Shown one piece after another: positions 27,339 through 43,922 of a DNA stretch of 64,000 nucleotides. The DNA is taken from contig JAENZE010000002.1 of the NCBI GenBank assembly GCA_016841425.1, positions 62,001 through 126,000 on the forward strand, read 5' to 3'. Every line of letters begins with the position of its first letter. The first letter of the stretch is position 1. The notes under the pieces were generated by a model, which was not told where the DNA came from, did no database searches, and worked only from the letters and a program-made list of their open reading frames with translations. Both the position numbers and the translations under genes were made by a program. Source of the DNA: Syntrophomonas sp. Lineage in GTDB: Bacteria > Bacillota > Syntrophomonadia > Syntrophomonadales > Syntrophomonadaceae.

Positions 27339-27368
27339 AACGGCATGATCAGATACAGACTATTAAAG

Positions 27369-27398
27369 GCCCTGGGTTAAATACCCGGGGCTTTTTTT
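27369..27398 (+). terminator. rho-independent terminator, end of cluster 2
   Basis: GCCCTGGGT-TAAAT-ACCCGGGGC is followed by seven T. Confidence 0.88.
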
Positions 27399-27430
27399 AT
27401 GGACAGAATTACAACGAAAGGAGTTAATGT

Positions 27431-27601: not shown

Positions 27602-27604
27602 AAG

Positions 27605-28192
27605 ATGGCCAGTATGTCGCAACCAATAGTTAATCAAAGTGAACAACAGATGGGTTTACATTTTTTAAGTCGGCTCAAACATTATGATTTGGATACGTAT
27701 CTGCACAGCTGCAGGGTAGCCAAACTATCACTCATGATTGGAAAAAGCATCGTCTTTAATGAGTTAATTATCAAGAATATTTATTATTCGGCACTTTTCC
27801 ATGACATAGGGAAAATAAAAATACCTAAACGCATTTTACATAAAACTACCCGGCTAAGTAATGATGAATGGGCTGAAATCCAAAAACACTCCCAATATGG
27901 GGTAGGACTTCTCAGGGGGTATCCATCGGAATTAATGACGGAGGATTTATTAAATTGCGTTTATCACCACCATGAGCATTATAGTGGCACAGGTTATCCT
28001 GATGGACTTCGGGGAGAGGATATTCCTGTTCCTGCCCGTGTAATAAGCGTAGCCGATGCCTTAGATGCGATGATTAACCCCCGTCCATACCGACAAATTC
28101 CCTTGTCGTATTATGAAGCTATTGGAGAGTTACAAATACACGCCGGTTCGCAATTTGACCCTTATATTATCAAGAAGATCAGTTGCTTATAA
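27605..28192 (+). CDS. stand-alone HD-GYP domain protein
   Basis: ATG 27605 follows GGAAGGGTGA. The 195 residues are almost entirely one HD-GYP domain: YSALFHDIGKIKIPKRIL (HD metal site), then YHHHEHYSGTGYPDGLRGEDIP (GYP motif) and ISVADALDAMINPRPYR. Conserved metal ligands appear intact. Such enzymes typically break down cyclic di-GMP. There is no sensor domain. Sitting at the end of a pilus/adhesin region, it could tune pilus or adhesin activity through c-di-GMP; that is inference. Confidence 0.85.
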   Translation: MASMSQPIVNQSEQQMGLHFLSRLKHYDLDTYLHSCRVAKLSLMIGKSIVFNELIIKNIYYSALFHDIGKIKIPKRILHKTTRLSNDEWAEIQKHSQYGVGLLRGYPSELMTEDLLNCVYHHHEHYSGTGYPDGLRGEDIPVPARVISVADALDAMINPRPYRQIPLSYYEAIGELQIHAGSQFDPYIIKKISCL

Positions 28193-28216
28193 AATCTCAA
28201 AAGGAGGAACGAAATT

Positions 28217-29206: not shown

Positions 29207-29212
29207 CATTAA

Positions 29213-29473
29213 TGCAGCACACGCTCAAGCCTTGATATCAGGGTATTTGCGGGGTATTGCAGCACACAACAAAATACGGCACTTAAATTATCATACTAAA
29301 TGCAGCACACAGAGCCGTATTTTAATATTGGTGCAGCACACGCTCACGCCTTGGTATATGGGCATTTAAAAGGTGTTGCAGCACACATTTTTTTGCAGCA
29401 CACAGCAAAAAGGTAAATGCAGCACACAATGCCCCGTGAATCCCCTTACATCGAGGGCTTGCTGTGTGCTGCA
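29213..29473. repeat. parC: TGCAGCACAC repeat block, putative parC centromere
   Basis: TGCAGCACAC occurs seven times in direct orientation (29213, 29258, 29301, 29332, 29377, 29394, 29418) and once inverted (29464-29473). Two longer copies of about 55 bp share a GCTCA-GCCTTG-TAT core (29213-29267 and 29332-29386). AAAATACGGC at 29271 is inverted at 29314. No gene fits here. Position between parM and a ParR-like gene marks this as the probable ParR-binding centromere. Confidence 0.75.
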
Positions 29474-29523
29474 GGGTGTTTTAAAGCGCATTGCCATAGT
29501 AAACACAGGAGGGTGAGGGCATT

Positions 29524-29805
29524 ATGGAAAGAAGTACCGTTCGCGTGGTTCTATACTTTTCTAAGGATCATCCTATCGCACAATACCGAAGTAAAGAGCG
29601 TAATAGGGTGGTAAAAGATTGGATAGAACAGGCATTGGCTTTAGAAAAGTCAATAAAAGAAATACAGACCGATGTTAAATCCATTAAAGAGATCTTAAAT
29701 GGGGGGGAAAACCAAACATTAATACCCACCCCGAAACATACCGCAAACACCGAGTTATCGGATGCAGACATTAATTTAATAGATCAGATGTTGGGTTTTA
29801 AGTAA
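29524..29805 (+). CDS. parR: ParR-like small DNA-binding adaptor
   Basis: ATG 29524 follows AGGAGGGTGAGGG. The 93-residue protein begins RSTVRVVLYFSKDHPIAQYR, consistent with a ribbon-helix-helix DNA-binding N-terminus, followed by a charged coiled-coil-like helix (LEKSIKEIQTDVKSIKEIL) and an acidic C-terminal motif (DADINLIDQMLGFK), the type of tail that ParR uses to contact ParM filaments. Partnering with the upstream repeats and ParM is inferred from size and position. Confidence 0.65.
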   Translation: MERSTVRVVLYFSKDHPIAQYRSKERNRVVKDWIEQALALEKSIKEIQTDVKSIKEILNGGENQTLIPTPKHTANTELSDADINLIDQMLGFK

Positions 29806-29821
29806 GGAGGATATTTTTTAT

Positions 29822-30094
29822 ATGAACAAAAACGAACTTATCAATGTCGTTGCCACACAGTTAAGTAAGAGTAGGCAAGAAGCTGAGGCTTTTATAAATA
29901 CTTTTATTGATGTGGTCAGTGGGGAAATCGCCCGGGGCAACCGAGTCCAAGTAACCGGTTTTGGGACATTCGAGAGAAAACTAAAGCCTTCCAGAGAGGG
30001 ACGAAACCCCAAAACTGGTGAGTCACTGCAAATACCCGCTAAATATCACCCTGTTTTTAAGGCGGGCAAGGTTTTTAAGGAACTATGTAACTAA
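29822..30094 (+). CDS. HU-family DNA-binding protein
   Basis: ATG 29822 follows AAGGAGG. The 90-residue protein is a full HU: MNKNELINVVA, then GTFERKLKPSREGRNPKTGE and a closing VFKAGKVFKELCN. The DNA-bending arm and its Arg/Pro residues (RNPKTGESLQIPA) are intact. It lies directly after parR in the same orientation, and may assist partition, replication or recombination of the element. Confidence 0.92.
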   Translation: MNKNELINVVATQLSKSRQEAEAFINTFIDVVSGEIARGNRVQVTGFGTFERKLKPSREGRNPKTGESLQIPAKYHPVFKAGKVFKELCN

Positions 30095-30192
30095 ATATCT
30101 TTATTCACTTGAAGAAGGGGGTGAATATTACAACTTAATCAGAAGTGATGTAAACTATATATAAATCTCGAATTTAAGGAGGAAAGAACCAC

Positions 30193-30927
30193 ATGAATAA
30201 CACAATTGGAGAAATTGTTAAAGGAAGAGTAATTGCAATTACACCGGAACCAGAACAGATAGTATTGACAGTCCGTTTATCGGAGAAAGAAAACGCCTTA
30301 TTGCCGGCATCTGAAGTCGGGATAGAGAATATACAAAGCAGTAATAACTTACGGGCAACCGCTCGCAGATTGATAGGCCGTCCGATTGTAGGGAAAGTAA
30401 TAGATACTAACCCCTTAACTATATCGAACAAACAGGCGATTGAAGAGCTTGAGCAATCAAGCAGCCTTGAAGTTGGGCAGGTATTCGATGGCATCGTAAT
30501 TAGCGTAAATGAAACCGAAGCCCAAATAGAATACAATTCATACTTAATGACCGTATTACCCCAAGAAGAGATGGGCATTATGCCGGGTACCAACTTGAAA
30601 ATGATCTTGAAATACGGCCAGAGGTTGCGGGTTGAGGTTATTGACGTGAAGGATGGTAAGTATATCGTTTCTCATAAGAAATTCTTACAGGACAAGGATG
30701 AATGGGAGGAACGCATTAACAAATATCAGGTTAAAGGCCAGTATTTAGGTATGGTAACAAACTTTATTAAAAACGGAGTATTTATTAACCTGGAACCTGG
30801 GATAGATGTACTTTGTTCGCCACAACCGGAATGGTTTGAACTCCAACGCGGAGACGAAGTGATTATTGAAATCACCGATAAAAATTCAAAGATCAAAGGG
30901 ATTGTCACCGGGAAAGCTTTTCTTTAA
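30193..30927 (+). CDS. S1-domain RNA-binding protein
   Basis: ATG 30193 follows AAGGAGG. The 244 residues hold three S1-type OB folds: residues 1-75 (GEIVKGRVIAITPEPEQIVL), 92-160 (GQVFDGIVISVNETEAQIEY) and 178-243 (GQYLGMVTNFIKNGVFINLEPG). S1 domains bind single-stranded RNA, as in ribosomal protein S1. The third is the best match. Its role on a mobile element is unknown. An inverted repeat just downstream probably ends this transcript. Confidence 0.75.
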   Translation: MNNTIGEIVKGRVIAITPEPEQIVLTVRLSEKENALLPASEVGIENIQSSNNLRATARRLIGRPIVGKVIDTNPLTISNKQAIEELEQSSSLEVGQVFDGIVISVNETEAQIEYNSYLMTVLPQEEMGIMPGTNLKMILKYGQRLRVEVIDVKDGKYIVSHKKFLQDKDEWEERINKYQVKGQYLGMVTNFIKNGVFINLEPGIDVLCSPQPEWFELQRGDEVIIEITDKNSKIKGIVTGKAFL

Positions 30928-30946
30928 AACCTTTTTCGCAACCTAC

Positions 30947-30970
30947 ACAAGCCGCCATTTGGCGGCTTGT
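30947..30970 (+). terminator. hairpin, probable terminator
   Basis: ACAAGCCGCC-ATTT-GGCGGCTTGT is a perfect 10-bp stem, followed only by TCTATTTAT, so termination may be leaky. Confidence 0.6.
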
Positions 30971-30991
30971 TCTATTTATGAGGTGATAAAT

Positions 30992-31627
30992 ATGGAGTTA
31001 AAAGATATTACAGTATTAGACAAAGACATTATCAAGGAGTTTGAAACTCTTAACATTGAGCAAAAAGAGTACCTATTCAGTATGGCTGAGCAAATGTACC
31101 AAAGCTTTGGGCAACTACTTGTTTACAGCTACCTGGACAGCCCCGAGTATATTGCGCAAAACTGGGCTATGGCAGACGATGAAAACCCAGGTATAGTGGA
31201 AACGAAGATACTCGATGATCCGTACCGGATACATATATTCATCAATCAAATACCAGAGCATCTAAGGGCATATAAACGGTCTAAATTCTCCAAGGAAATT
31301 GGGTTTTCTAAAGAACGGCAACGGTGGTTTTTATTAATGAAAACCGCTTTTCGAGAACTCAAAAAACAGGGCTTAAAACCCTTTGGTGAAGAAAAAGTGG
31401 TAGCCATGTATAAATTCCATTTTCTAAAAAAGACGGATTCTGATAACTACACGATCAGCCAGATAAACAATACCTTTCGTGATGTAGGTTTAATAAAAGA
31501 CGACAATATAAATTATCTAGCAACCTTCTGTGATGGGAAAGTAAATCCTAAAAAACCCGGCGTAGAAATTACCCTTTTAAAAGAGGTCGATTTTGGCATT
31601 TATTGCCATTATTTAACTCAAAAATAG
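30992..31627 (+). CDS. RusA-like endonuclease candidate
   Basis: ATG 30992 follows GAGGTGATA. The 211-residue protein is unremarkable at its N-terminus. Its C-terminal half has TDSDNYTISQINNTFRDVGL, then IKDDNINYL and GVEITLL, following the RusA Holliday-junction resolvase pattern (D.DN ... D ... GL..DD..I ... GV.I.I) with its catalytic Asp residues. The order and spacing fit, but the first 100 residues are longer than in typical RusA (about 120). It would act in DNA recombination or replication of the element. Confidence 0.5.
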   Translation: MELKDITVLDKDIIKEFETLNIEQKEYLFSMAEQMYQSFGQLLVYSYLDSPEYIAQNWAMADDENPGIVETKILDDPYRIHIFINQIPEHLRAYKRSKFSKEIGFSKERQRWFLLMKTAFRELKKQGLKPFGEEKVVAMYKFHFLKKTDSDNYTISQINNTFRDVGLIKDDNINYLATFCDGKVNPKKPGVEITLLKEVDFGIYCHYLTQK

Positions 31628-32051
31628 GGGGTCAATAATTCAAAAACAGGTAGCGACACCTTTATTGATTTAAAACCCTTATAAACTAAGGGCTTTTCTT
31701 AAAAAATCATTTAACAAATCAGAAAAAATCCAATATTCAAAATCAGTAAATTGGGTATAAAGCTATATGTAGTCGCACTTTGAGTGCAAAAAAGTAGGGG
31801 TATTACATGATTTGGGATTATAAAACCCTTCAAATCAGAGGGTAACTGTTTTATTTTCACTGTTTTTAGCACCCGCTAAATCCTTGGTATACCTAGAATA
31901 GCAGCAGATATTACGTAAATAAAACAAGCACTGTGGGCTTGTTCTGTAGTTGCGGGCACATGGCAGGCTCCACACGCACGAGATGCCTTCGCACAATAAC
32001 AAAAAAACCGAATCTTAATTAACAATAATTTAGCAGAATGAAAGGAGAAAT
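31628..32051. other. AT-rich non-coding region, possible origin of transfer or replication
   Basis: About 420 bases without a credible gene. Visible structures are a weak terminator (ACCCTTATAAACTAAGGGCTTTT, about 31675-31697), a GCACTTTGAGTGC hairpin near 31777, a TAAAACCC/GGGT pairing near 31822, and AACAAGC-ACTGTG-GGCTTGTT near 31922. It stands immediately upstream of a replication-relaxation-like gene and the coupling ATPase. This is where an oriT or replication origin might be; no known sequence type was recognised. Confidence 0.35.
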
Positions 32052-33113
32052 ATGATGGCAAGAACATGGTCAAGACAAGAGGGCGATTTAAAAATATTAG
32101 AGGCATTACATAAGTATAAATACTTGAGAGGGAAAGTGCTAACGAAGATATCGGGTTACACACAAGCAAAAGGTCATGACCGAATATCTGCATTAAAAAG
32201 ACAGGGGTTAATAATTGGTGAAGCATATGTTAAACAGGAAAAAGCGGCCACCAGGGTAGTTAATAAAAAAGTTGCTGCAATATATTATTTAACAACCAAG
32301 GGGTTAGTAACTATCAAAACCATTTTAGGAGAAGAAGTAAACGGAGAAGAAAGGGGAAGGAAACCTAGCGAGGAAGAAAAAGAACGAGCATATCGAGCAA
32401 GCCTGCTTCTTGAAGGTTTAAGCGACATATATGATACCTTTTCAGCCCCTGCAGGGTATAAAATCAAACAAGATATACCGAACTTTGTCCCAATCGGCTT
32501 AGTAAACAGAAACACTCTTATATTTTTTGATAAACCTGAAAAAAGCCGAAATATGATCTCCAAGATAGTTACTGAATGTCACCGATTACAGGAACGCTTT
32601 CAGAGCCATGAGACGCTGATCCTAACAACAGATGAACGAAAGCGTAACAATTTTGTCAGTTATAGCATCGAACACTATGGTCAAACCGAGCGTATACTCG
32701 CCCAGGATGATTATACCGGCATACGATACCTATTAGCCCCCGACCAGGAGTTTAAGAACTACTTTATAAGCAGCGGAATCGAAATAGAAGAATTAGATAA
32801 GCCGTATGATGGCTGTTCTTATATCATAGATAGAGAAATGGCAAACATATTCGATGTAGTAGGACTGCCGGCAAAAACCCTCCGCAGGGTAAAACGAACC
32901 AATGGGAAAATCTATTTATTGGTGAGCAACGACAGGGAGAGAAAAACGCTTTACAAACACTACCCCGAGTACCAAGACAACGAAGATACCGTAGTAATTG
33001 AATTAGGCAGGCAAATATTACTTAACCATGAGGCATTTACCATTAAAGAAGAACCCCTGCAGGGTGAAGATAAATGGGCCAAAGCGCTTCAAGGTTACGC
33101 ATCGCAAAACTAA
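32052..33113 (+). CDS. replication-relaxation-like winged-helix protein
   Basis: AAAGGAG precedes ATG 32052, with ATG 32055 equally possible. The 353-residue protein begins WSRQEGDLKILEALHKYKYL, then a winged-helix pattern (QAKGHDRISALKRQGLI ... YYLTTKGL), as in the replication-relaxation family of Gram-positive plasmids and conjugative elements. The remaining 230 residues are not recognised; they may be a nuclease-like domain (HETLILTTDERKR). It is followed at once by the coupling ATPase gene, so a transfer or replication role is likely. Confidence 0.55.
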   Translation: MMARTWSRQEGDLKILEALHKYKYLRGKVLTKISGYTQAKGHDRISALKRQGLIIGEAYVKQEKAATRVVNKKVAAIYYLTTKGLVTIKTILGEEVNGEERGRKPSEEEKERAYRASLLLEGLSDIYDTFSAPAGYKIKQDIPNFVPIGLVNRNTLIFFDKPEKSRNMISKIVTECHRLQERFQSHETLILTTDERKRNNFVSYSIEHYGQTERILAQDDYTGIRYLLAPDQEFKNYFISSGIEIEELDKPYDGCSYIIDREMANIFDVVGLPAKTLRRVKRTNGKIYLLVSNDRERKTLYKHYPEYQDNEDTVVIELGRQILLNHEAFTIKEEPLQGEDKWAKALQGYASQN

Positions 33114-33130
33114 GGAGGGAGGGAGGACTT

Positions 33131-34888
33131 ATCGCTTTAAAACTCAATTTAGGGCAAATGTTAAATCTGATGCTGTTATTGACAGCTGCCGTACTGTTTA
33201 CAGTAACCATAATAGCCCTAACCCCCGTTTCAACTATATGGCTATTTATACTTCTACTGGGAGCTATAATAAGCACAATAGTATTAAGACAGATACGAAC
33301 ATTGGGAACCGTGGGAATAATAGTAATTGCCCTATATACAGCACCAATGCTAGTTGCAGGGTATACAAGCCTATCCCCCGACCTGCAATCATCCGGGGAA
33401 TTAGTTGCTCGTATTTACTGCGCAGCCTTACTATTAGGAGCCATAGTATTCAATGTATATCACAAGGACCAGGATGAAACGGCATTAAGCGGACTAAACA
33501 TCACGATGCCGCAGATAACAAAAAGCAAAATAGACAGCGATGCAATACTCCATCCCTCGGTAGAGATATGCCGTAAAGCTAACAATCCAATGCAAAGGAT
33601 AGAGATAAGCGGCAAAGACCGGTATTTACATACACTGTTAATAGGCTCAACCGGCACAGGTAAAACATCAGCCGTATTACAGCCATCCGTCTGGCAGGAT
33701 CTATTGAGCTACAAAAACGGTCAACAGTTAGGGATAACCGTAGTAGCCCCAGACGCAGAGTTTTGTCATACAGTACGGGACTGGTGCAAGGCATTAGGAA
33801 TACCCTATGCGATAATCGACCTAGACGATCCTAACACCAGCAGATTTAATCCGTTGGAAGGCGATCCAATCATCGTATCGGAAATAATGAGAACAGTATT
33901 AAGGGCAACTTTTGGGGAGCAGGAAGCATTTTTTGCCCAGGCACAGGAATTACATGCCAAGAACACCATGATGCTGTTAAAACGATTAAAAGGGAATAAC
34001 CTTACCCTACTAGATGTTTACAATTCCTTAATGGACATAGAAGGAGTGCAGAATGATGTCGACGAATACATCAGATTATTTGGTACCGACATAGTAACCA
34101 CCTATTTCCAGAAAGAAGCATTTGGTAAGAACAGGGACAAGCTGCATCAATTTGCTATGGGTCTTCGGATGCAAATATCAGACTTACTGGCCAATGATAC
34201 CGTATATAACGTACTGGTAGGGAAATCCGACATAGATCTGGACCAGCACATGAACGAAGGCGGCGTGTTATTGGTTAACACAGCATTAGGTAAAATGGGA
34301 CATATGAGCAGAACCTTCGGGCAATTTCTAATCATGCACATCCAGAATGCAGTATTCAGGAGGCCGGGAACCGAGTTTACGCGCATACCCCATTACCTAT
34401 ACATAGACGAACTGCCGGTGTATTTCAATCCGGAGCTGGAAAATCTTTTGAACATGGGGAGGAAATACCGTTGTGCCTGTACCTTTACCATCCAGGGTCC
34501 ATCACAGTTAGAGAAAGGCAAGCAGGGGCAAGCCATGCGAGAGATAATTATCAACGGCTGCCGTAACAAGATAGTAATCGGCATCGAATCATCGAAAGAC
34601 GCCAAATTGGTATCAGAGTTATTGGGTGAGAATAAAGACAAAGAAGTAAGAGTAACCAAGAAACGATTTAACCTACTACCGGAATCTTATTCTGAAACCG
34701 ATAAAGACATTAAGAGATTTACTTATACTGATGTATTAGAGATACCGCCGTGGCATGGATTAGTCAAAGTTGTGCATGACGGCCGGAACACCGAACCGAC
34801 ACTTGGTAAATTTACAGAACCGTGGCTATTCCAGGAACAAGTGAACAAAGAGTTAAGAAAACTTCAACGGCATCAATTAATATCCTAG
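33131..34888 (+). CDS. VirD4/TraG-type coupling ATPase
   Basis: The open frame begins at ATG 33074, inside the previous gene, behind GGGTGA; but a much stronger AAGGAGGGAGGGAGG (33114-33126) precedes ATC 33131, which I prefer. Two N-terminal membrane segments (MLNLMLLLTAAVLFTVTIIA; LFILLLGAIISTIVL) are followed by Walker A LLIGSTGTGKTSAVLQ, Walker B PHYLYIDELPVYF and a TraG-C-like region (YRCACTFTIQGPSQLEKGKQ). About 585 residues. Such proteins feed DNA-protein complexes into a type IV secretion channel. No relaxase or VirB set is in the window. Confidence 0.8.
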   Translation: MALKLNLGQMLNLMLLLTAAVLFTVTIIALTPVSTIWLFILLLGAIISTIVLRQIRTLGTVGIIVIALYTAPMLVAGYTSLSPDLQSSGELVARIYCAALLLGAIVFNVYHKDQDETALSGLNITMPQITKSKIDSDAILHPSVEICRKANNPMQRIEISGKDRYLHTLLIGSTGTGKTSAVLQPSVWQDLLSYKNGQQLGITVVAPDAEFCHTVRDWCKALGIPYAIIDLDDPNTSRFNPLEGDPIIVSEIMRTVLRATFGEQEAFFAQAQELHAKNTMMLLKRLKGNNLTLLDVYNSLMDIEGVQNDVDEYIRLFGTDIVTTYFQKEAFGKNRDKLHQFAMGLRMQISDLLANDTVYNVLVGKSDIDLDQHMNEGGVLLVNTALGKMGHMSRTFGQFLIMHIQNAVFRRPGTEFTRIPHYLYIDELPVYFNPELENLLNMGRKYRCACTFTIQGPSQLEKGKQGQAMREIIINGCRNKIVIGIESSKDAKLVSELLGENKDKEVRVTKKRFNLLPESYSETDKDIKRFTYTDVLEIPPWHGLVKVVHDGRNTEPTLGKFTEPWLFQEQVNKELRKLQRHQLIS

Positions 34889-34949
34889 CGGGATATTCCC
34901 TTGCAGGGTGTAAATAATTATAATTACAAAAGAGGAAGTGATAAATAAA

Positions 34950-35627
34950 ATGCTCAATGATTATAAAGCAATAGAAATAATAAAAAGAAAACCCGAACCA
35001 TATACCAGTGATCTGCCAAAATGGGGTCGTCCGATACTGGAATTAGTAGGCAAGCACTACTTTCTTGAAGCCGAACAAATAACAGACAACTTATTCGGCA
35101 GCGGCAATCGTACCGGCAAAAAGAAACTATTTGAGTTATCTCAAAAAGATTTTTTGACCCGTTACGAAATATACTGCAAAGACAAAGAAGTCCCCATCAT
35201 AGGTTATACATTAAGCGAAAACGGAGCCAGAGTGACCAGATATATCCCACCCAGGATAAGCCTCAACCGAGCACTGGAATACATCATAGCCAACGAGTTT
35301 TTCTTCATGCGTGGGCATTTACTGGATGGCTGGAAACTTTTAAGCGGGTCGCAGCTGCTAATAGGTGAATTGCTGATAGATGGACAGAAGTTTGGTTTAT
35401 GGGCCCCCCGTGAAGAGGACACTAGGATTAAGTCATTGCTAACGGAAACCATGGGCTTGCAGGGTTTAATAGTAATAGCGCCCAGCGAATTAACCTTGAC
35501 CATAATCTCAACCCGGCTAGAAGCGTTGAATCTCAATAAGCCTATATACTACACTATAGACAGTGAGTTAGAGTTGTTAAGGTACATGGACGAGGGTAAT
35601 TTGAAAATATTGACCGATGTAGAATAA
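34950..35627 (+). CDS. winged-helix protein related to the replication-relaxation family
   Basis: ATG 34950 follows GAGGAAGTGA; an in-frame GTG at 34938 overlaps that site. The 225-residue product begins DYKAIEIIKRKPEPYTSDLP and carries ILELVGKHYFLEAEQITDNL, then LFELSQKDFLTRYEIY and GYTLSENGARVTR, which read as a winged helix like that at 32052. The C-terminal half is unknown. It may be a smaller partner of the 32052 protein. It contains one TGCAGGGT octamer at 35458. Confidence 0.45.
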   Translation: MLNDYKAIEIIKRKPEPYTSDLPKWGRPILELVGKHYFLEAEQITDNLFGSGNRTGKKKLFELSQKDFLTRYEIYCKDKEVPIIGYTLSENGARVTRYIPPRISLNRALEYIIANEFFFMRGHLLDGWKLLSGSQLLIGELLIDGQKFGLWAPREEDTRIKSLLTETMGLQGLIVIAPSELTLTIISTRLEALNLNKPIYYTIDSELELLRYMDEGNLKILTDVE

Positions 35628-35679
35628 CATCATAAGCAACTATACAATAAAATCAAAAAACAATATAATATGCTTATAG

Positions 35680-35720
35680 AGCCTTACTTTAAAAATTGAT
35701 TTTAGAGTGAGGCTTTTTTT
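35680..35720 (+). terminator. rho-independent terminator
   Basis: AGCCTTACTTTAAAA and TTTTAGAGTGAGGCT form a long stem, followed by a T run. It ends the coupling-ATPase unit. Confidence 0.8.
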
Positions 35721-35734
35721 ATGAACAAAAATTA

Positions 35735-35808
35735 GGGCTCGAGTTTTCGAGACGAAAAAAATCCGGCGAATTTTCGCTGGGAACGATCTCCCTTCGGGGA
35801 GATTTTTA
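35735..35808 (+). ncRNA. tandem hairpins, possible small RNA
   Basis: Three small hairpins follow each other: CTCG-AGTTTT-CGAG, GGCGAA-TT-TTCGCT and ATCTCCC-TT-CGGGGAGAT, the last with a T run (terminator-like). No gene is present. This could be a short structured RNA or a processed leader or trailer. Promoter not identified. Confidence 0.3.
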
Positions 35809-35913
35809 TATGTCCAAAAATACATATCCCGTCCTTAATGGGGCTGCACACGGGAGAATTACCACACTAAATTATAGGAGGTGATATCCCGCTGGTGCAG
35901 AGCGGGGAAAACT

Positions 35914-36360
35914 ATGTACAGAAAACAAATAACTAATCTATTGGCCGCAATAATGCAGTCCAACGACCCTCATCAAGAGAGGCTGTTAAATCAAGTTCAA
36001 AACATGATTGACCAAGCAGGTGCTTACGTTGAAGCAGTAATGGCGATGGAATCACGCATAGAAGTATTGCGTTTCCGAATGGAGCCAGAGGATTACCGAA
36101 TCGCTGTAGCACAGCTGGACAGTCGCAGAAAATCCATGCACGATGCACTAATAAGTCTCGTAAACATTGTTAATCGCATCTGTGAGAAATTCTCGCAGGA
36201 AAAGATCTACCAGGGTGATAACGACCGTATCTCAATCGCGCAATTTGCATTTGATTTAGCAAAAGAGTTCAAACCCGTTGATCCTCTCGCATTAAGGCAA
36301 AAGTTAGTGGATCAAAGAGGAGTCAGCGAAACTATCCTACGTAATAAGCTAAGACGGTAA
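35914..36360 (+). CDS. unrecognised helical protein; hairpin between ribosome site and start
   Basis: The likely start is ATG 35914, but AGGAGGTGA is 29 bases upstream, separated by a hairpin (CCCGCT-GGTGCAG-AGCGGG) that would bring the two together. The 148-residue product is almost entirely helical (LLNQVQNMIDQAGAYVEAVMA; MESRIEVLRFRME), with repeated RIEVLRFR and DSRRKSMHDALI segments and no membrane region. I recall similar short proteins on clostridial elements but cannot name the family. Confidence 0.5.
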   Translation: MYRKQITNLLAAIMQSNDPHQERLLNQVQNMIDQAGAYVEAVMAMESRIEVLRFRMEPEDYRIAVAQLDSRRKSMHDALISLVNIVNRICEKFSQEKIYQGDNDRISIAQFAFDLAKEFKPVDPLALRQKLVDQRGVSETILRNKLRR

Positions 36361-36377
36361 GTGTTTCACCTACAGAG

Positions 36378-36418
36378 TTGAAAAGGTTTTCGGGGTAACC
36401 CCCGGGAACCTCTTTTCT
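36378..36418 (+). terminator. rho-independent terminator
   Basis: AAAAGGTTTTCGGGG and CCCCGGGAACCTCTTTT form a long, slightly imperfect stem ending in CTTTTCT. Confidence 0.75.
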
Positions 36419-36540
36419 ATTCATGGGAAAGATTCTTGCAGGGTGTTACTCTGCCAAAACATCATAACTTGTTAACCCTTTTTATTAGGCTTAGGCCGGC
36501 GAAATATCCGGCATTAGCCGGGTAGAAAGGAGCAAAAAAG

Positions 36541-38088
36541 ATGGAAGAAACATTATTTGATCTCAGCGGAATTGAGCAAATCATCAAAGATACCCGCAGA
36601 GGAATATTATCACTTCGGGCAATGGCGCCCATTTTTACGCAAGAGGAATGGGATGCCCAGACTCAAGAAATCAAAAAGGGCATTTTGCCGACCCAGATGC
36701 AATGTGATAACACAATATATCTTCAGGGCAAAAATGATCATGATATCGGTGTCTTGGGAATAGTGGAACTCCGTGAACGAATAAGCTATCTTTTTGAACT
36801 GGTATTATGGTGTGACCCGAGAGACATAGAGGATCAAGACTGGTCTTTATATGATGAGCAGCTCAAATGGTGTTTAAGTTTAGCAGCTGGCACAAAAGAA
36901 CCTTTGCCGGCAGTAGCCACCGTACATAATATTGCTGAGTTGGATGGAGTAATCAAAGATATTATAGATACTTATCTAGATCCAGCGATGGAAGGGACAC
37001 CCTGGAAGCTAGCAGTTTCATGGGGAAAAGACTCGACCTGTATGGTAAAAGCCATTTTAGAAGCACTAAGCCAGTTAAACTCAAATCAATGGCAGCGGCC
37101 CATTCATCTGGTGACTTCGGATACTAGTATCGAGATACCTTTAATGTTAAACATCATGCGAAAAAACATGAAGGACATGGCAGGGTATATTGAATCAACC
37201 GGTTTGCCAGTATTTTTGCATATGGTCCAGCCCACAATGCCGGAACGATTTTTCGTTAATCTAATCGGTAAGGGTTATACGCCACCGATGGGAGGCCCTG
37301 TGAAACGCTGGTGTACCAGTAGGTTGAAACTCAAACCCATGCAGCGGCTGGAAAAAGAGTTAGCTTATAACGGACAGATGATCAATGTAATTGGAACCCG
37401 TTATGATGAAAGCGCCAGCCGGGAAACATCTATAAAGAAATTTGAAAGTAATACCAGATACGGTTATACAACAAGCCCGGGCATATATTCATACGCACCC
37501 ATAGTCCAATTAACCACCGAAAAAGTATGGGATTACCTGAGAGAAGGATTGCCCTGGGGGAATAACTATCAAATACTAGAAGAACTCTACCGAGCAAGTT
37601 CGCTCGATGATAGTTTGATAAACGGAGGCAGGATGGGATGTATAACCTGTTTTGCGGTAAGCAAAGACAAATCTCTGGCTAATCTAATTGCGAACGGTTA
37701 TGAATGGCTGCAGCCACTACTGGAATACCGGCAGATCATTCTTGATACCGTAGCCAATCCGATATATCGGGAACCAGTACCGATTGATCGGAGAACAGCG
37801 CTACCGACTACAAGGAAGGCTCGTAATCCCGCCAAAGTAACCATGGGCGGGATCAACCAACTGGGTAGACAATATCTTCTACATAGACTATTGGAAACCC
37901 AGGATAAAGTATTGGCCGGGATGAAGCAAGCAGGATTTGAGGTAGAAGGCGGGTACCAGATAATATCCACCGAGGAAATCCGCTACATCAAGTCTTGGTG
38001 GAACTGGCTATCGAGTTATACCGAGCCAGGCCTTATTCCAGTAGAGGTAATCAAAAAACCCGATAATCGGCAAATGGCACTATTCTAA
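36541..38088 (+). CDS. orphan DndC/PAPS-reductase-like enzyme
   Basis: ATG 36541 follows AAAGGAGC. Residues 1-150 are unknown. From about 155 the protein has a PP-loop (LAVSWGKDSTCMVKAIL), then TSDTSIEIPL, FFVNLIGKGYTPP and RWCTSRLKLKPMQRLE, a sequence of motifs very close to DndC of DNA phosphorothioate systems and its PAPS-reductase relatives. Cys residues at RWC and at MGCITC could hold an iron-sulfur cluster. No dndB, dndD or dndE lies nearby. It may act alone on an unknown sulfur chemistry or in partnership with host genes. Confidence 0.7.
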   Translation: MEETLFDLSGIEQIIKDTRRGILSLRAMAPIFTQEEWDAQTQEIKKGILPTQMQCDNTIYLQGKNDHDIGVLGIVELRERISYLFELVLWCDPRDIEDQDWSLYDEQLKWCLSLAAGTKEPLPAVATVHNIAELDGVIKDIIDTYLDPAMEGTPWKLAVSWGKDSTCMVKAILEALSQLNSNQWQRPIHLVTSDTSIEIPLMLNIMRKNMKDMAGYIESTGLPVFLHMVQPTMPERFFVNLIGKGYTPPMGGPVKRWCTSRLKLKPMQRLEKELAYNGQMINVIGTRYDESASRETSIKKFESNTRYGYTTSPGIYSYAPIVQLTTEKVWDYLREGLPWGNNYQILEELYRASSLDDSLINGGRMGCITCFAVSKDKSLANLIANGYEWLQPLLEYRQIILDTVANPIYREPVPIDRRTALPTTRKARNPAKVTMGGINQLGRQYLLHRLLETQDKVLAGMKQAGFEVEGGYQIISTEEIRYIKSWWNWLSSYTEPGLIPVEVIKKPDNRQMALF

Positions 38089-38120
38089 AATTCTTTTAGA
38101 CAAAGAATAGGAGGTTGAGG

Positions 38121-38243
38121 ATGAACAAATTAATCCAAGTTCCGGAAGCGGAACAAAATAAACTCTTAAATATCTACCGGGATGCTCCGGAAGAAAATCT
38201 GGACCAGCTGGATGCTAAATCACAAGGCTGGGCCAGGAAATAA
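38121..38243 (+). CDS. small acidic protein of unknown function
   Basis: ATG 38121 follows AGGAGGTTGAGG. Forty residues: MNKLIQVPEAEQNKLLNIYR, then an acidic stretch (DAPEENLDQLD) ending WARK. The ribosome site is strong and the gene lies 32 bases after the DndC-like gene, in the same unit, before a terminator. No family recognised. Confidence 0.5.
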   Translation: MNKLIQVPEAEQNKLLNIYRDAPEENLDQLDAKSQGWARK

Positions 38244-38278
38244 AAACACTGAAGAAAAAGTAACTTATCATTCACTAT

Positions 38279-38305
38279 AAAGACCGTCTTTAGGGCGGTC
38301 TTTAT
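38279..38305. terminator. bidirectional terminator
   Basis: AAAGACCG and CGGTCTTT enclose a short loop. It lies between two converging genes, with a T run on the plus side. Confidence 0.75.
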
Positions 38306-38760
38306 TTCTTCCCAGGCCTGTATTCATCAACCAATTCAAAGGCTAATATCTCAACTGGTTTGTAGGGCAGGGGAGTAATCGAATGCAGCCCGCAGAAATC
38401 ATTGATTCTATTCCGGTTAAAATCAATTTTGGATATAATATCACTTGTGTCATGCTCAATGCCGGTTGATTCTGATTTTATGGTCAATTTAACCAGTTCG
38501 CCGCATCCATCCGATACGGCCAGTAGAGAATCCAAAAGTACATGCCTTTCATCCGAGCCTTCTTCAGTCCCAGAGATGATTCCATGCAGGATGTCGTTAT
38601 ATAATTCACGCACATTCTTAGTATGGTTTTCCTTCAACCAGTCCACCACGATTTGTCGGGCAAACTTTCTTTTTGAAAGCCCTGCTTTGGCAGCTTCTAC
38701 TCTTAAAGCATTATCCTCATTTTCAGATAACTCAATCCCCACTATTACTTGATCGCTCAT
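38302..38760 (-). CDS. ribbon-helix-helix-like repressor
   Basis: On the minus strand the start is ATG at 38760-38758, preceded by AAAGGGTAAAAT; the longer open frame upstream consists of the AT-rich repeats and is not real. The 152-residue product starts SDQVIVGIELSENEDNALRV, then KAGLSKRKFARQIVVDWL, resembling a ribbon-helix-helix domain. The C-terminal 100 residues are unknown. It is the only minus-strand gene of the element, standing behind an operator-like array, so a self-regulated repressor is likely. Confidence 0.5.
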   Translation of the reverse strand: MSDQVIVGIELSENEDNALRVEAAKAGLSKRKFARQIVVDWLKENHTKNVRELYNDILHGIISGTEEGSDERHVLLDSLLAVSDGCGELVKLTIKSESTGIEHDTSDIISKIDFNRNRINDFCGLHSITPLPYKPVEILAFELVDEYRPGKK

Positions 38761-38774
38761 TATTTTACCCTTTC

Positions 38775-38828
38775 TTATATAAGTTATATAATATATATAA
38801 GTTATATAAATTATATAACTTATATAAC
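38775..38828. promoter_or_regulatory. AT-rich operator-like array
   Basis: Three copies of TTATATAAGTTATATAA (about 38775, 38794 and, inverted, 38811) stand immediately upstream of the minus-strand repressor gene and ahead of the plus-strand integrase unit. Spacing is about 18-19 bases. Probably the binding sites of the 38302 protein. Confidence 0.6.
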
Positions 38829-38982
38829 AATAAAACAAGTGTTTTGTATCAAAAATCAAAAACCGAATTTTTGGTACATTATTTTTCATGCTTACGGTGT
38901 TAGCCAACTCAGTGACGTGATTAAAGGCTCCTGGTGGAAAATAGGGGTTAATTACTTTAATTCAATAAGAGGGTCAACTTAT

Positions 38983-39007
38983 ACCCGGCATAGGCCGGGT
39001 TTTTTAA
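38983..39007 (+). terminator. rho-independent terminator without an annotated gene
   Basis: ACCCGGCATAGGCCGGGT is followed by six T. The 150 bases upstream hold no convincing gene, so it may end a short RNA started in the AT-rich array. The region 38829-38982 otherwise shows nothing I recognise. Confidence 0.7.
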
Positions 39008-39091
39008 TGGGTATCGACTAATATCGGGAAAACATTCCAGCTTAAAAATAATTGTAAATTAATAAATATTTATAACGAAGGAGGGTTTATA

Positions 39092-39256
39092 TTGGAAAAA
39101 ACTAAGCGCAAAAACAAAGCAAATATAACTGTGGAATACAATGGTGGTGATGGGCTTCAGAACGCCTATAGAATATTAGGGAAATTAGTCGTCCAAAAAT
39201 ATTTAGAGAAAAGGGAGCAAGAAGCTATCAAACAACGGATCCCATCGACAGTGTAA
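39092..39256 (+). CDS. small basic protein next to the integrase, candidate directionality factor
   Basis: TTG 39092 follows GAAGGAGGG. The 54-residue product is strongly charged (EKTKRKNKANITVEYNGGDG; VVQKYLEKREQEAIKQR). It lies 72 bases before the serine recombinase gene, in the same direction. Small basic proteins in this place act as recombination directionality factors on some serine-integrase elements; no homology supports that here. Confidence 0.5.
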   Translation: MEKTKRKNKANITVEYNGGDGLQNAYRILGKLVVQKYLEKREQEAIKQRIPSTV

Positions 39257-39328
39257 ATAGACAAGGTGGGGCAAGGTATCTCGATATTCACTAGATCCCA
39301 TAATAATAGACAAGTTAGGTGAGTTAAA

Positions 39329-40840
39329 ATGAGAGCAGCAATTTATATAAGAGTTAGCACTGAAGAACAGGCATTACATGGGTATAGTCTGGCAGACCAA
39401 GCTGAAGCTTGCAGGGCAAGGGCCAAAGAACTGGGAGCCACTATTATTACCGAGTATTTCGATGAAGGAATTACAGGGAGTACATTAGATCGCCCAGGAT
39501 TAGAAAAACTTAGAAATAATATAAAACAAGGACTAATAGATTATGTAATCATCCTTGATCCAGACCGTTTTAGTAGGAAATTATCACATCAGCTTTTACT
39601 TACAGAAGAATTTGAAAAAGCCGGTGCAACATTAGTTTTTATTAATTTTGAATGGGTAGACTCACCGGAAGGTAGGATGTTTTATTCAATCAAAGGTGCT
39701 GTATCTGAGTATGAAAGAGAAAAAATTAAAGAACGAATGATTAGAGGAAAAAATCAAAAGGCTAAACAGGGCGGCATGCCGATAAATTTTACTTTATTTG
39801 GATATGACTATGATGCCGAGAATGGGGTTCAGATTAATCAGAATGAAGCTGAAGTTGTAAAAAACATTTATGATGCTCTTACTAAAGATAACATGAGCCC
39901 TGCTGCCATAGCGATACATCTTACAGAATCCGGTATCCCGACAAAGAAAGGAAAAACATTTTGGTTTCGACAAACAGTAAGACAGATTTTACTTAACCCG
40001 GCATATTACGGCGAATGGCCTTATAAAAGAAATACAGATAAACCAATAATCATACCGGTACCACCTATAATTGATAAGGAAACATGGGATAAAGCTCAAG
40101 AAATATTAAAAGAATCTAAAAGATTATGGGCAAAAAGAGGAAAGCAAGACTACCTGTTATCGGGCATTGTTACATGTTTGGATTGCGGTACACCGATGGG
40201 AGGGGCATTCAAAAACAATTGGGGTAAAAAAGTCCGATACTATACTTGCGCAAAGTCGCCATCTACTAATCGTATTTCTGGTTGTTCCCCTATTAAATCC
40301 ATTAACGCAGATAGCCTGGAGTATAATGTATGGGAAAAAGTAAAGAAATTTTTGCAAAATCCTGACGAGATTCTGATAGAAGCCAGGAACAACCTACCTG
40401 TGCAAGAAGGATTGACTGATGAATTAGAAAATATCACTGGGCGACTGCAGAACATAGATAAAGGCCGCAAATCCTTAATTGATGCACTCGCCAGTGGTTC
40501 CTTGGATCTTGATGAAGATATAAATGAAAAATTACAATATATAAAAAAGCAAAGGCTATTTTTAATCAACCGCAAAATTGAAATAGAGAAAACTCTACAG
40601 GTATCAAATAATTCAGGTCAGATTTTTTCGGAATTATATCAGGTGTCAAAAAGCATTGCAGATGGGTTGGATAATATTGACTTTGATACAAAGCAATCAA
40701 TCATAAGAAGTCTTGTTTTGCAAGTTTTGGTTACAGGTAGAATAAGTACAACGAATCATAAGATAGACGAATTGCCGGGAGTAAACGTTAAACTTAGTTT
40801 AAACCTAAATCCACAATCCTTACCGGCAATTTCGGATTAA
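39329..40840 (+). CDS. large serine recombinase (SpoIVCA-like)
   Basis: ATG 39329 follows TTAGGTGAG. The 503-residue protein has the resolvase domain with catalytic Ser in YIRVSTEEQ, then GSTLDRPGLEKL, ILDPDRFSRKLS and SEYEREKIKERM; a recombinase domain (FTLFGYDYDAENGVQINQNE; IPTKKGKTFW); a zinc ribbon (CLDCGTPMGG ... YYTCAKS) and a coiled-coil region. All are features of large serine integrases. It ends with TAATG, overlapping the ATG of the sigma-K fragment. By analogy with SpoIVCA it should excise the element in the mother cell and rejoin sigK. Confidence 0.9.
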   Translation: MRAAIYIRVSTEEQALHGYSLADQAEACRARAKELGATIITEYFDEGITGSTLDRPGLEKLRNNIKQGLIDYVIILDPDRFSRKLSHQLLLTEEFEKAGATLVFINFEWVDSPEGRMFYSIKGAVSEYEREKIKERMIRGKNQKAKQGGMPINFTLFGYDYDAENGVQINQNEAEVVKNIYDALTKDNMSPAAIAIHLTESGIPTKKGKTFWFRQTVRQILLNPAYYGEWPYKRNTDKPIIIPVPPIIDKETWDKAQEILKESKRLWAKRGKQDYLLSGIVTCLDCGTPMGGAFKNNWGKKVRYYTCAKSPSTNRISGCSPIKSINADSLEYNVWEKVKKFLQNPDEILIEARNNLPVQEGLTDELENITGRLQNIDKGRKSLIDALASGSLDLDEDINEKLQYIKKQRLFLINRKIEIEKTLQVSNNSGQIFSELYQVSKSIADGLDNIDFDTKQSIIRSLVLQVLVTGRISTTNHKIDELPGVNVKLSLNLNPQSLPAISD

Positions 40841-41238
40841 TGGGCCACTTTAAAGATTACGCATATCAAGGAATTGACATTGAAGTTCTCATGCATTTAC
40901 GGAACCTGAAAAAGAAACGAACTGAGGTTTCCATATACGACCCTATTGGTTATGATAAGGAAGGCAATGAAATAGCCTTAATTGATATTTTAGCTGAAGA
41001 TAATGAAATAATAGATATGGTAGATATGAAACTGCAAGGAGAAAAAATCCTTTCCAAGATTGATGTGCTCAGTGAAAGAGAACGTCAAATTATCGAGATG
41101 CGTTATGGGGTCTTTAATGGCTTGAAAGAACCACAGCGTGAGATAGCTCGTAAGATGGGGATATCCAGATCATATGTCTCCCGCATCGAAAAACGGGCTT
41201 TAAAAAAGCTGATTAGGGAGCTGAGTACAGAATCCTAA
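40840..41238 (+). CDS. sigK: 3' half of sporulation sigma factor K (SpoIIIC-like)
   Basis: The 132-residue frame reads, from residue 14, IEVLMHLRNLKKKRTEVSI, then YDPIGYDKEGNEIALIDIL. It compares well with B. subtilis SigK as I recall it (ILMHLRALKKTKKDVSLHDP). It ends with the region 4 helix-turn-helix (QREIARKMGISRSYVSRIEK). Regions 1-2 and the pro-sequence are missing, which is the state of spoIIIC beside skin. The first 11 or so residues come from the element. On its own it cannot be an active sigma factor; excision would fuse it to the 5' half outside the window. A terminator follows. Confidence 0.85.
   Translation: MGHFKDYAYQGIDIEVLMHLRNLKKKRTEVSIYDPIGYDKEGNEIALIDILAEDNEIIDMVDMKLQGEKILSKIDVLSERERQIIEMRYGVFNGLKEPQREIARKMGISRSYVSRIEKRALKKLIRELSTES
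40858..40900. other. probable recombination (att) site of the element
   Basis: Similarity to SigK begins around ATTGACATTGAAGTTCTCAT (IDIEVLMH), so the strand exchange must lie close to here. The exact core cannot be placed without the left end. Confidence 0.55.
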
Positions 41239-41525: not shown

Positions 41526-43922
41526 ATGGATAGCAGAAACCATATAAAAGAAGAGTTGAAATCAGGTATATTGCAAATGCGGCAGCAGGTAAGCGAGCTT
41601 CAACTTGCCCATGAGGACAGGCAGGGGCTGGTAGAAACTTTGGAGCAGATGGAAAAAAAGTATCGCCTTCTGGCCGATAATGCCTGTGATATTATTTCTT
41701 TGCATAGTATAGATGGCAGTCAATGCTTATATGTTAATCCTGCCATTTCAAATATTCTGGACTATCGAGAAGAAGATATTGTCGGCAGTAATAACCTTAA
41801 AATTACTGATATGGTTTATCCGGACGATAAAGAGGAGTTATTGAGAATATTTAACAGTACTTTGGAGATGAGTGAAGCATCAGGCAAACTCAGATATAAG
41901 AAAAAAGATGGTGGATCGGTATGGTTTGAAGTAGTAGGGAGATTAATCCATGATGATGATATCCCGGTAGTTCTATTAAGAGCAAGAGATATCAATGATC
42001 AGAAGATGGTTGAGAGCCAGATGGAAAAGCATTATGAGGAACTGCATCGCGGCTATGAGAAAATAGAGGAGTTAAATACCCAGCTTAATGAATACCAGGA
42101 AACCTTGTTGGAAACTAATGCCCAATTAAAACATAGTGAGGAACAGCTGCAATTAGCACTCTGGGGAGCTAGCGAATGCATGTGGGAATGGAACATGATG
42201 GCGGGAAAATTCTTTATGTATGATAAATGGGCCAATGTTCTCGGATATGAATGGGAAGAGAAGGAATTATCTGCTTCCTGGTGGGAGGATTATATTCATC
42301 ATGATGATATCCTGCCGTTGAGTGAAGCACTGCAAACTTATTTGGAAGGAAAAGCGCCTCATTTTTCGGTGGAAGCGCGGGTGAAGAATGGACGAGGTGT
42401 TTATGTCTGGCTGTTTATCACCGGCAAACTGGTTTTTCAGGATAATCAGGGCAGAACTTTGAGAATGATAGGCCTGGGACAGGATATTAGCGCCCAAAAA
42501 CAGGCCCGTCAGAAATTAGAAGATAGTGAAACTAAATATAGAAACTTATTTGAAAAAAATCCTATTGGATTGTGCAAATTTGATCGGGAAGGTAATGTTA
42601 CTGATGTTAATTCGGCCATGGTGGATATTTTAGGTGCTGATTCTCAGGAAGAAATTCAGGAATTGAACATATTTTCTAAAGACAATCAAGAAATACTCCC
42701 GATACTTGATGACCTGATGGAGTTATGTGCTGCTGGAGATAGTGCCGCCGGGGAATTGCAGATAATTACAAGATGGGGAAAGGACGTATGGATCTATTAT
42801 CGCATTGATCCTCTGATGGATGAAGCAGGAAACTTCCTGGAGGCTATGCTGGTATGTGAAGAGATAACCGACCGTAAAAAGGCCGAGGATAAGATAAAAT
42901 ATTTAAGTTTTAATGATAGTCTAACAGGGTTGTACAACCGTGCCTTTTATGAAGAAGAGCTGAAGAGACTGGATACCAAGAGACAGTTGCCGCTTACAAT
43001 AGTCATGGGGGATTTAAATGGGCTGAAGCTGATAAATGATGCTTTTGGACATAAACAGGGTGATTTAGCCCTGCAGAAAGTATCGGAAGTTCTTCGGGTC
43101 TCCTGTCGTCAGGAAGATATTATCGCCCGGGTAGGGGGAGATGAGTTTATAGCCCTGCTGCCAAAAACTAGTTCTGAAGTTGCGCGAAATATCTGCCGTC
43201 GTATCAAGGAGAACTGCCAGAAAGTAGAAACAGCTAACATGAGGTTGAGCATTGCTCTGGGGATGGCCACCAAGGAGAGTGTCGAGCAGGACATTTACGA
43301 AATAGAGCATGAAGCGGAAGAACGTATGTACCGGAATAAACTGCTGGAAAACAGGAGTACCAGAAATTCGTTTATTAATTCTTTAGAAGAAACCCTTTGG
43401 AGCAGGGGACATGAAACGAAGGAACATACTGATCGTCTGCATCAAATATTGGAGGCAGTAAGCTACAAAGTTGGATTAACCAACAGCGAGATAGCCAACT
43501 TAAAATTACTGGCGTCCCTCCACGATATTGGTAAGATAGCCATACCGCCTAGTATATTGGAAAAGGAAACTGGGCTGTCAGAGGAAGAATGGGATACGGT
43601 TAGAAAACATCCGGAAATAGGTTATCGGATTGCCCTTTCGGCACCTGAATTAGCGCCTATAGCAGAGGCTATACTCACGCACCATGAAAACTGGGATGGA
43701 AGTGGTTATCCGCTGATGATAAAGGGTGATAGTATACCTTTGCTGGCTAGAATATTAGCCATTGCTGATACCTATGACGTGGTTCGCAACGGTCGCCCTT
43801 ACCAGCAAGCACTAACAAAAGAGAAGACTCTTCAGGAGATACAGGCTTGTGCTGGGACTCGTTTTGATCCCCGGCTGGTAAAAGTTTTTATTAGTGAAAT
43901 ATCTGCTAGAGAAGATTTATAA
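41526..43922 (+). CDS. PAS-PAS-PAS-GGDEF-HD-GYP cyclic-di-GMP signalling protein
   Basis: ATG 41526 follows TTTTGAGGTG. The 798 residues hold a short coiled coil, PAS1 (about 40-165), a coiled coil, PAS2 (205-320), PAS3 (340-450), GGDEF (455-610) with intact RVGGDEFIALLP, and HD-GYP (620-790) with LHDIGKIAIPPSIL and ENWDGSGYPLMIKGDSIP. Both catalytic signatures are present. It may therefore make and break c-di-GMP in response to a cytoplasmic signal; there is no membrane segment. It is chromosomal, next to the sigK 3' half. Confidence 0.9.
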   Translation: MDSRNHIKEELKSGILQMRQQVSELQLAHEDRQGLVETLEQMEKKYRLLADNACDIISLHSIDGSQCLYVNPAISNILDYREEDIVGSNNLKITDMVYPDDKEELLRIFNSTLEMSEASGKLRYKKKDGGSVWFEVVGRLIHDDDIPVVLLRARDINDQKMVESQMEKHYEELHRGYEKIEELNTQLNEYQETLLETNAQLKHSEEQLQLALWGASECMWEWNMMAGKFFMYDKWANVLGYEWEEKELSASWWEDYIHHDDILPLSEALQTYLEGKAPHFSVEARVKNGRGVYVWLFITGKLVFQDNQGRTLRMIGLGQDISAQKQARQKLEDSETKYRNLFEKNPIGLCKFDREGNVTDVNSAMVDILGADSQEEIQELNIFSKDNQEILPILDDLMELCAAGDSAAGELQIITRWGKDVWIYYRIDPLMDEAGNFLEAMLVCEEITDRKKAEDKIKYLSFNDSLTGLYNRAFYEEELKRLDTKRQLPLTIVMGDLNGLKLINDAFGHKQGDLALQKVSEVLRVSCRQEDIIARVGGDEFIALLPKTSSEVARNICRRIKENCQKVETANMRLSIALGMATKESVEQDIYEIEHEAEERMYRNKLLENRSTRNSFINSLEETLWSRGHETKEHTDRLHQILEAVSYKVGLTNSEIANLKLLASLHDIGKIAIPPSILEKETGLSEEEWDTVRKHPEIGYRIALSAPELAPIAEAILTHHENWDGSGYPLMIKGDSIPLLARILAIADTYDVVRNGRPYQQALTKEKTLQEIQACAGTRFDPRLVKVFISEISAREDL

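Follow-up and report, generated by a model that had tools for sequence, protein, structure and literature searches.

A putative large-plasmid-like element splitting the sporulation gene sigK in Syntrophomonas sp.

In Bacillus subtilis and C. difficile, the coding region of sigK is interrupted by the elements skin and skinCd, both of which encode a large serine recombinase and whose excision rejoins the gene in frame. Skin elements are termed prophage-like, and the available portions of two reports give 48 kb for that of B. subtilis (PMC5025042, PMC13141910). A non-phage element, as described in the accessible part of its report, is gin of Bacillus cereus ATCC10987, which measures 28.6 kb, splits the late mother-cell gene gerE, has three recombinases and is removed by a serine recombinase acting with a helper; its authors state that it has no structural genes for conjugation (PMC5595907). 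Here we describe a locus of Syntrophomonas sp. that resembles skin and skinCd in its interrupted sigK and large serine recombinase, and at which the same in-frame join can be made in silico. It lies in a 64,000-nucleotide stretch of DNA (the window; contig C3:62001-126000 of a 3.58-Mb genome in 27 contigs, called G000 below). We propose that a circular, large-plasmid-like element of about 150 kb or more has integrated in sigK and is excised during sporulation to rejoin the gene, a reading to which we give a probability of roughly 0.77.

The split sigK gene and its attachment site

The features at the junction are as follows (window positions, strand).

39092..39256, +: 54-amino-acid open reading frame (ORF) preceding the recombinase, a candidate directionality factor
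39329..40840, +: large serine recombinase, 503 amino acids, 38% identical to the integrase of the sigK phage MMB025
40840..41238, +: frame with the sigK 3' half, 132 amino acids; native sigK from 40882 (EVLMHLR..., region 4)
40852..40881, +: P arm of the attachment (att) site, 30 nucleotides before the crossover
40855..40867, +: outer 13-bp arm of the inverted repeat in attP, GATTACGCATATC, matched by its reverse complement on contig C22, directly inside the 5' half
40882..40883, +: predicted crossover dinucleotide GA in a GAA (Glu) codon of sigK
41526..43922, +: chromosomal right neighbour of sigK

The initial annotation of this DNA described a recombinase gene ending in TAATG, the start of a frame that encodes only the C-terminal part of SigK with region 4, and placed the recombinase on the side of the 3' half and in the same direction. 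All of this was borne out. The recombinase stop TAA overlaps the ATG of the sigK frame at 40840; the recombinase (39329-40840), with its domains Resolvase, Recombinase and Zn_ribbon_recom, reads in the same direction as the sigK part behind it (40840-41238); and that part aligns to positions 103-226 only of the 227-position SigK model TIGR02846 (2.7e-49). The TAATG overlap is probably incidental, because it is not conserved in Syntrophomonas palmitatica and G043, where no in-frame start codon precedes the MYLR/MHLR methionine of the 3' half. A 5' half with a matching core had also been predicted, and a complete sigK elsewhere with no such half had been named as contrary evidence. One matching 5' half was found on another contig (C22:89195-89536), where it covers TIGR02846 positions 6-120, and a whole-genome TIGR02846 search (E up to 1, 15 matches) found no complete sigK in the 3.58-Mb genome. 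The other matches are other sigma factors, the best of which we read as SigE and SigG. The N terminus of the 5' half is hydrophobic and resembles a pro-sequence.

Our survey sample consisted of 54 genomes of the family holding S. palmitatica. TIGR02846 scored above cut-off in 31 of them, which were taken to have an intact or nearly intact sigK. The gene is split, with an element junction on both sides, in G000, G039 (S. palmitatica JCM 14374), G043, G034 and G051; G015 has an element junction on the 5' side, and its 3' contig ends at the crossover. In the same-genus genomes G016 and G017 sigK is intact, and both flanks of the halves of G000 meet there at one point. Sequence matching the right neighbour also adjoins sigK in G017. 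These two empty sites, the attP dyad described below and the related splits in other genomes support the skin-like split by a large element that the initial annotation had proposed, and likewise support site-specific insertion into sigK.

When the inner ends of the element were joined in silico to give attP, its 30-nucleotide arms formed inverted repeats around GA with 23/30 matches. This GA was the best of 29 centres, and its score was reached in 0/2000 shuffles. Joining the outer ends gave ATYVARCIDNEVLMHLRNLK, so that precise excision would restore an in-frame sigK (...DNEVLMHLR...). The best dyad centre was the same GA in all five genomes with both junctions. Matches between the arms numbered 23 of 30 in G000, G039 and G051, 21 in G043 and 14 in G034, and the score was reached by none of 2000 shuffles in the first four and by 21 in G034. 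When arms were crossed between genomes, the P arm of G000 matched its own P' arm at 23/30 and that of the same-genus G015 at 20/30, vs 9-13/30 for seven element arms outside the genus and 10/30 for two native sigK arms. One arm type is shared by G039, G051 and the remnants in G038 and G036, whose arms match each other at 21-24 positions.

Contig ends in the assemblies of relatives also fall at the crossover. The contig with the sigK 3' half begins at the first base of the crossover GAA codon in G014 and G015 and one base earlier in G006, and the 5' contig of G013 ends four bases past this codon. The contig pairs overlap by exactly 127 (G014), 141 (G006) and 127 (G013) bases, as at an assembly-graph branch, and the 5' contig of G015 also carries the split form. 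Because these ends and overlaps fit a branch at the crossover, they are read as joined and split sigK in one sample, which could arise via excision or strain mixture. The chance of such contig ends is 9.6e-6, a rough figure that assumes uniform ends, a 690-nucleotide gene and 10 genomes with an end in sigK (other contig ends inside the gene are those of G012, G020, G021 and G047). No recombinase relatives were found in G006, G013, G014 or G015 at E <= 1e-60, and when the 3' sequence was used as query, neither G014 nor G006 yielded a third contig from the element side.

Among 679 matched phage records, the best match of the recombinase was Alicyclobacillus phage MMB025 (38%), a phage located in sigK according to the accessible part of its authors' report (PMC13141910). 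In a tree of 11 recombinases, those of G000 and S. palmitatica are sisters (99/98). Seven recombinases of phages and plasmid-type elements are joined with 91/91 support only, and the outgroup branches are long. In MMB025 and in a circular plasmid record from Alkalihalophilus, the best attP dyad is likewise GA-centred (19/28 and 18/28; ranked within 300 and 260 nucleotides and with no shuffle control). Phages and this plasmid-type element thus seem to share a lineage of sigK-targeting recombinases. The Alkalihalophilus record itself (NZ_CP144225.1) is a 37-kb circular 'plasmid' annotated with phage genes, with the related recombinase at 14397-16040 (L123); its GA-centred attP reads ...GAAATCCTAATG..., which is sigK-like, and it is perhaps an excised sigK phage. 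The 54-amino-acid ORF is a candidate directionality factor because similar small ORFs precede the recombinase in G039, G043 and G057 (24-40% identity), with a weak match in G034. It also has a sub-threshold match to a terminase small subunit (E 0.017).

Synonymous divergence differs between the two halves of the gene: G000 and G016 are separated by 0.48 in the 5' part vs 1.68 in the 3' part, and G016 and G017 by 0.90 vs 0.20. This suggests that the sigK genes of G000, G016 (L062) and G017 (L058) are mosaic, with a break near the att site.

Extent and gene content of the intervening element

Further features of the element are listed below; the defence genes lie on contig C3 to the left of the window.

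1..40881, no strand: right-hand part of the sigK-intervening element (C3:62001-102881)
10783..12141, +: T2SSE-family ATPase, Tad/type IV pilus cluster
16941..18272, +: second T2SSE-family ATPase, pilus cluster
28217..29206, +: ParM-like actin of plasmid segregation type (ALP_N, MreB-like_C)
30193..30927, +: S1-domain protein with a relative on a Brevibacillus marinus plasmid
33074..34888, +: VirD4/TraG-type coupling protein (T4SS-DNA_transf, TraG-D_C)
34938..35627, +: Replic_Relax-like protein (weak, sub-threshold), sole relaxase candidate
36541..38088, +: PAPS-reductase-like protein, cargo
L006 11063-20000, L007 1-1720, L008 7943-15490: Druantia-like, DarTG and Gabija genes

The size of at least 40.8 kb given in the initial annotation holds as a lower bound, and must be raised to at least about 150 kb. 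Apart from the right-hand part in the window, the element comprises C3:1-62000 and C22:89512-136628, plus any unassembled gap, so that its minimum size is 47.1 kb (C22) plus 102.9 kb (C3). Its G+C content is 0.40 and 0.38, compared with 0.42 and 0.43 in the flanks.

A scan of genome contigs returned a single locus, that of S. palmitatica (L030), in which sigK is also split and a 55%-identical recombinase stands directly before the 3' half. Its contig C2 holds, beside the recombinase and the sigK 3' half, homologues of genes from both the C22 side and the C3 side of the G000 element, so the C22 and C3 parts appear to be one element. The C22-side homologues include an AAA ATPase, HD and PD-(D/E)XK proteins and a DNA ligase, together with a protein that we take to be thymidine-kinase-like; the C3-side homologues are those of the genes at C3:96950 and C3:97914. 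A further 28 genes (C3:63865-96888) are collinear with contig C22 of S. palmitatica (Kendall tau 0.99), and for the 10 shared C22-side genes collinearity with its contig C2 was not significant (tau 0.38, p 0.16).

Homologues of the genes at C3:97914 and C22:91186 are about 0.7 kb apart on contig C2 of S. palmitatica, with one ORF between them. In G000 these genes sit near opposite ends of the integrated element and would be brought together only by circularization, still separated by the recombinase, the att site and a replication-type gene. Moreover, the sigK 5' half is followed by a DnaD-like gene in G000 and by a 333-amino-acid ORF in S. palmitatica, and similarity between the two was undetectable at 1e-6. 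Because gene order around the recombinase-att module differs in this way, the module occupies a different point of a shared backbone in the two genomes, through relocation or rearrangement.

Gene content was assessed by a Pfam scan of 56 element proteins and a PHROGs scan of 20, which together covered 66 of the 167 called ORFs and 49 of the 50 with at least 300 amino acids. Type IV secretion is represented by a TraG/VirB4-type ATPase (P-loop_TraG), a T4SS_pilin protein, a VirB1-type protein with SLT and M23 domains and the VirD4-type coupling protein. Replication and partition genes encode a ParA/MinD-type ATPase, a beta clamp (DnaN), a primase-like protein, an NAD-dependent ligase, a single-stranded-DNA-binding protein (SSB) and a DnaD-like protein; an anaerobic ribonucleotide reductase, DUF6094 and DUF6744 are also present. 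PADLOC detected a Druantia-like set (DruB, DruC, DruD, DruE), Gabija (GajA, GajB) and DarTG. The scanned proteins included no large terminase subunit, no portal or capsid protein and no convincing tail protein, and searches of viral contigs with the recombinase, coupling protein and an AAA protein returned zero relatives. Among 72,556 plasmid records, relatives of the coupling protein were found in 76 and relatives of the VirB4-type protein in 1222, of which PLSDB types 697 as conjugative. The best plasmid matches of both proteins are large Bacillota plasmids, several of them common to both lists. Taken together, gene content points to an element of large-plasmid type that is not phage-like. 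As judged from sequence, it is by site and architecture a skin-type element on a plasmid-type chassis, for which the developmental step would follow by analogy. With its transfer-type genes it may be conjugative.

Two proteins with RRXRR and HNH domains, presumably IscB-like, are also encoded inside the element (window 7348-8601; L025 1564-2883).

Relatives, proposed cycle and alternatives

Recombinase relatives (E <= 1e-60) were found in five of the 54 family genomes: directly before the sigK 3' half in G000, G039, G043 and G034, and in part in G054. The contig of G051 holds only the last codons of a recombinase, read by eye. Relatives of the coupling protein (E <= 1e-10) are confined to G000 and G039. 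The sigK site may serve more than one chassis, because the genes resembling VirB4 and ParM on the 5'-half contigs of G043 and G034 are only distantly related (22-28%). In G057, from another family of the same order (C78; L095, L106), a 58%-identical recombinase lies tail to tail with a sigK 5' half; a 3' half was looked for in this genome and not found. Its dinucleotide, aligned by eye, is TC instead of GA at the same distance from the P arm, and such a core would turn the insertion round.

Extra sigK 5' halves ending at the same crossover were observed in G036 (C9; L093) and in G038 (C1:589147-589500; L091, L092). The latter stands about 24 kb before an intact sigK (C1:613841-614575), and a 432-bp segment is 97.7% identical between the two copies. 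The ORFs listed between them include type I restriction-like genes and a helicase 25% related to the DruE-like protein of the G000 element, and no serine recombinase was seen among them. The arrangement has the look of an element's remains, with sigK made whole again through duplication of its 5' part. Two further candidates for a split gene, G023 and G044, were dropped, as their contig ends fall within an intact gene. G002 (C39, L105) was not counted: its sigK 5' part diverges just before the GA and stops soon after, with no sign of this crossover, as the result of another element or of decay.

Based on these observations, we propose the following cycle. In a member of the S. palmitatica family, a circular element would have inserted itself into sigK, the large serine recombinase exchanging strands between attP and sigK at the GA of the GAA codon. 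During sporulation the recombinase and a directionality factor, perhaps the 54-amino-acid ORF, would excise the element from the mother-cell chromosome, as inferred from skin and skinCd. This would rejoin sigK in frame (...DNEVLMHLR...), and sigma-K could be made in the mother cell. The forespore chromosome would keep the element and pass it on, and integration would thereby let a plasmid enter the spore together with the chromosome.

Continued use of sigK was examined through selection and promoters. The ratio of nonsynonymous to synonymous substitution rates (dN/dS) of both halves was 0.017-0.054 in the 16 unsaturated comparisons of 26, the other 10 being saturated; against G016 and G017 each half gave 0.02-0.04, as between intact genes. 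This fits purifying selection on both halves, consistent with a sigK that is still in use. Scored with an approximate sigma-E matrix and simple shuffles, the region ahead of the sigK 5' part showed a sigma-E-like site of similar spacing in each of the eight genomes examined, including this one (p 0.010-0.057 in seven, 0.32 in G039). A good match before the small ORF or the recombinase was found only in G057 (0/300 shuffles), and none was convincing in G000, G039, G043 or G034.

It is unlikely that the insertion is dead, with sigK broken, the element never excised and a host that no longer sporulates or needs no sigma-K. The lack of a conspicuous sigma-E-like promoter before the recombinase of G000 would suit such a state, and G038, with its leftover 5' half, second intact sigK and no serine recombinase among the ORFs listed between, is a case of decay. 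However, the low dN/dS of both halves, the open recombinase frame with its three domains, the symmetric att arms and the apparent co-occurrence of joined and split forms in relatives' assemblies argue against it. A good deal less probable is an ordinary prophage-type skin element, whether phage or remnant. Phage affinities do exist, in the similarity of the recombinase to that of MMB025, in phage-like replication genes, in one weak minor-tail match (24 bits) and in the terminase-like score of the 54-amino-acid ORF, but convincing virion and packaging genes were not found among the scanned proteins, and VirB4-, VirD4-, pilin-, SLT/M23-, ParM- and Tad-type genes are present instead. We consider it still more improbable that rearrangement or misassembly parted the halves with no element involved. 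The halves do lie on different contigs with a gap between them; nevertheless, a symmetric attP falls exactly at the break, mobile-type genes stand on both inner sides, a similar layout recurs in S. palmitatica, G043 and G034, and relatives have empty sites. Chromosomal rearrangement in particular was rejected on account of the attP symmetry, of what is encoded on both inner sides and of the gene content of S. palmitatica.

Several observations weigh against an excisable plasmid-type element. C22 and C3 are not joined in the assembly, which makes about 150 kb a minimum and leaves the gap between them unseen. No outstanding sigma-E-like promoter precedes the recombinase or the 54-amino-acid ORF of G000 (p 0.08 and 0.52), and the low dN/dS of the halves could predate a recent insertion. 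The arms of G034 pair weakly (14/30; 21/2000 shuffles): more matches join its P arm to six foreign arms (15-18) than to its own partner (14). Regarding transfer, 73 of the 76 plasmids that carry a coupling-protein relative are non-mobilizable in the PLSDB typing. Of the two relaxase families searched for genome-wide, PF03432 is absent from the genome and PF13814 (Replic_Relax) gives a sub-threshold match at C3:97037-97243 (E 0.03-0.04), and the structure model of this candidate is poor (predicted local distance difference test, pLDDT, 51).

A broader and more doubtful idea, which we offer tentatively, is that a conjugative megaplasmid lineage uses sporulation in its life cycle. It would enter the spore in sigK and be released as a replicating, perhaps transferring, circle of 150 kb or more, by way of a recombinase module related to those of sigK phages that sits at differing backbone points in different genera.

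Comparison with known systems

The element described here differs from skin and skinCd in its size, about 150 kb or more, and in its plasmid type; for those two elements developmental excision has been demonstrated, whereas here we infer it. Like gin, as the accessible part of its report describes it, the element is non-phage and lies in a late mother-cell gene, but gin is smaller and interrupts gerE rather than sigK. MMB025 (PV686781; PMC13141910) shares the sigK integration and the GA-centred attP dyad; according to the available part of its description, it is in contrast a 105-kb infectious phage with structural genes.

Closest in gene content are three plasmids, of Brevibacillus marinus (NZ_CP034542, 101 kb), Geobacillus (pGspE55-1, 127 kb) and Thermoanaerobacterium (pMU3262, 111 kb), which between them carry relatives of VirB4-, VirD4-, DUF6094-, DnaN-, SSB-, primase- and Tad-type genes. 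All of the B. marinus plasmid was compared, together with 100 kb of pGspE55-1 and 50 kb of pMU3262. Of 171 queries from the element, 27 matched in these pieces, a count that includes the sigK frames matching a plasmid sigma factor, and a transposase. Identities are mostly 22-42%, and unlike the element these plasmids are recorded as circular and typed by PLSDB as non-mobilizable.

A literature search, with subscription journals mostly outside it, turned up neither a sigK element of plasmid or conjugative type nor any sigK element in Syntrophomonas. In the literature so surveyed, as far as its accessible parts go, sigK-splitting elements are phages or prophage-like, and what is new here is the plasmid-type chassis. 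If true, a plasmid-type sigK element with relatives in several genera of one family would point to excision from sporulation genes as a wider niche for mobile DNA, and the route of a large plasmid into spores and its fate in the mother cell would become testable. Recombination units of SPbeta, skin and ICEBs1 have been engineered to swap between phage and conjugative elements, as the available portion of that work describes (PMC6957869). Those swaps are laboratory constructs, whereas the element in sigK looks like a natural outcome of the same modularity, through exchange of recombination units between phages and plasmids.

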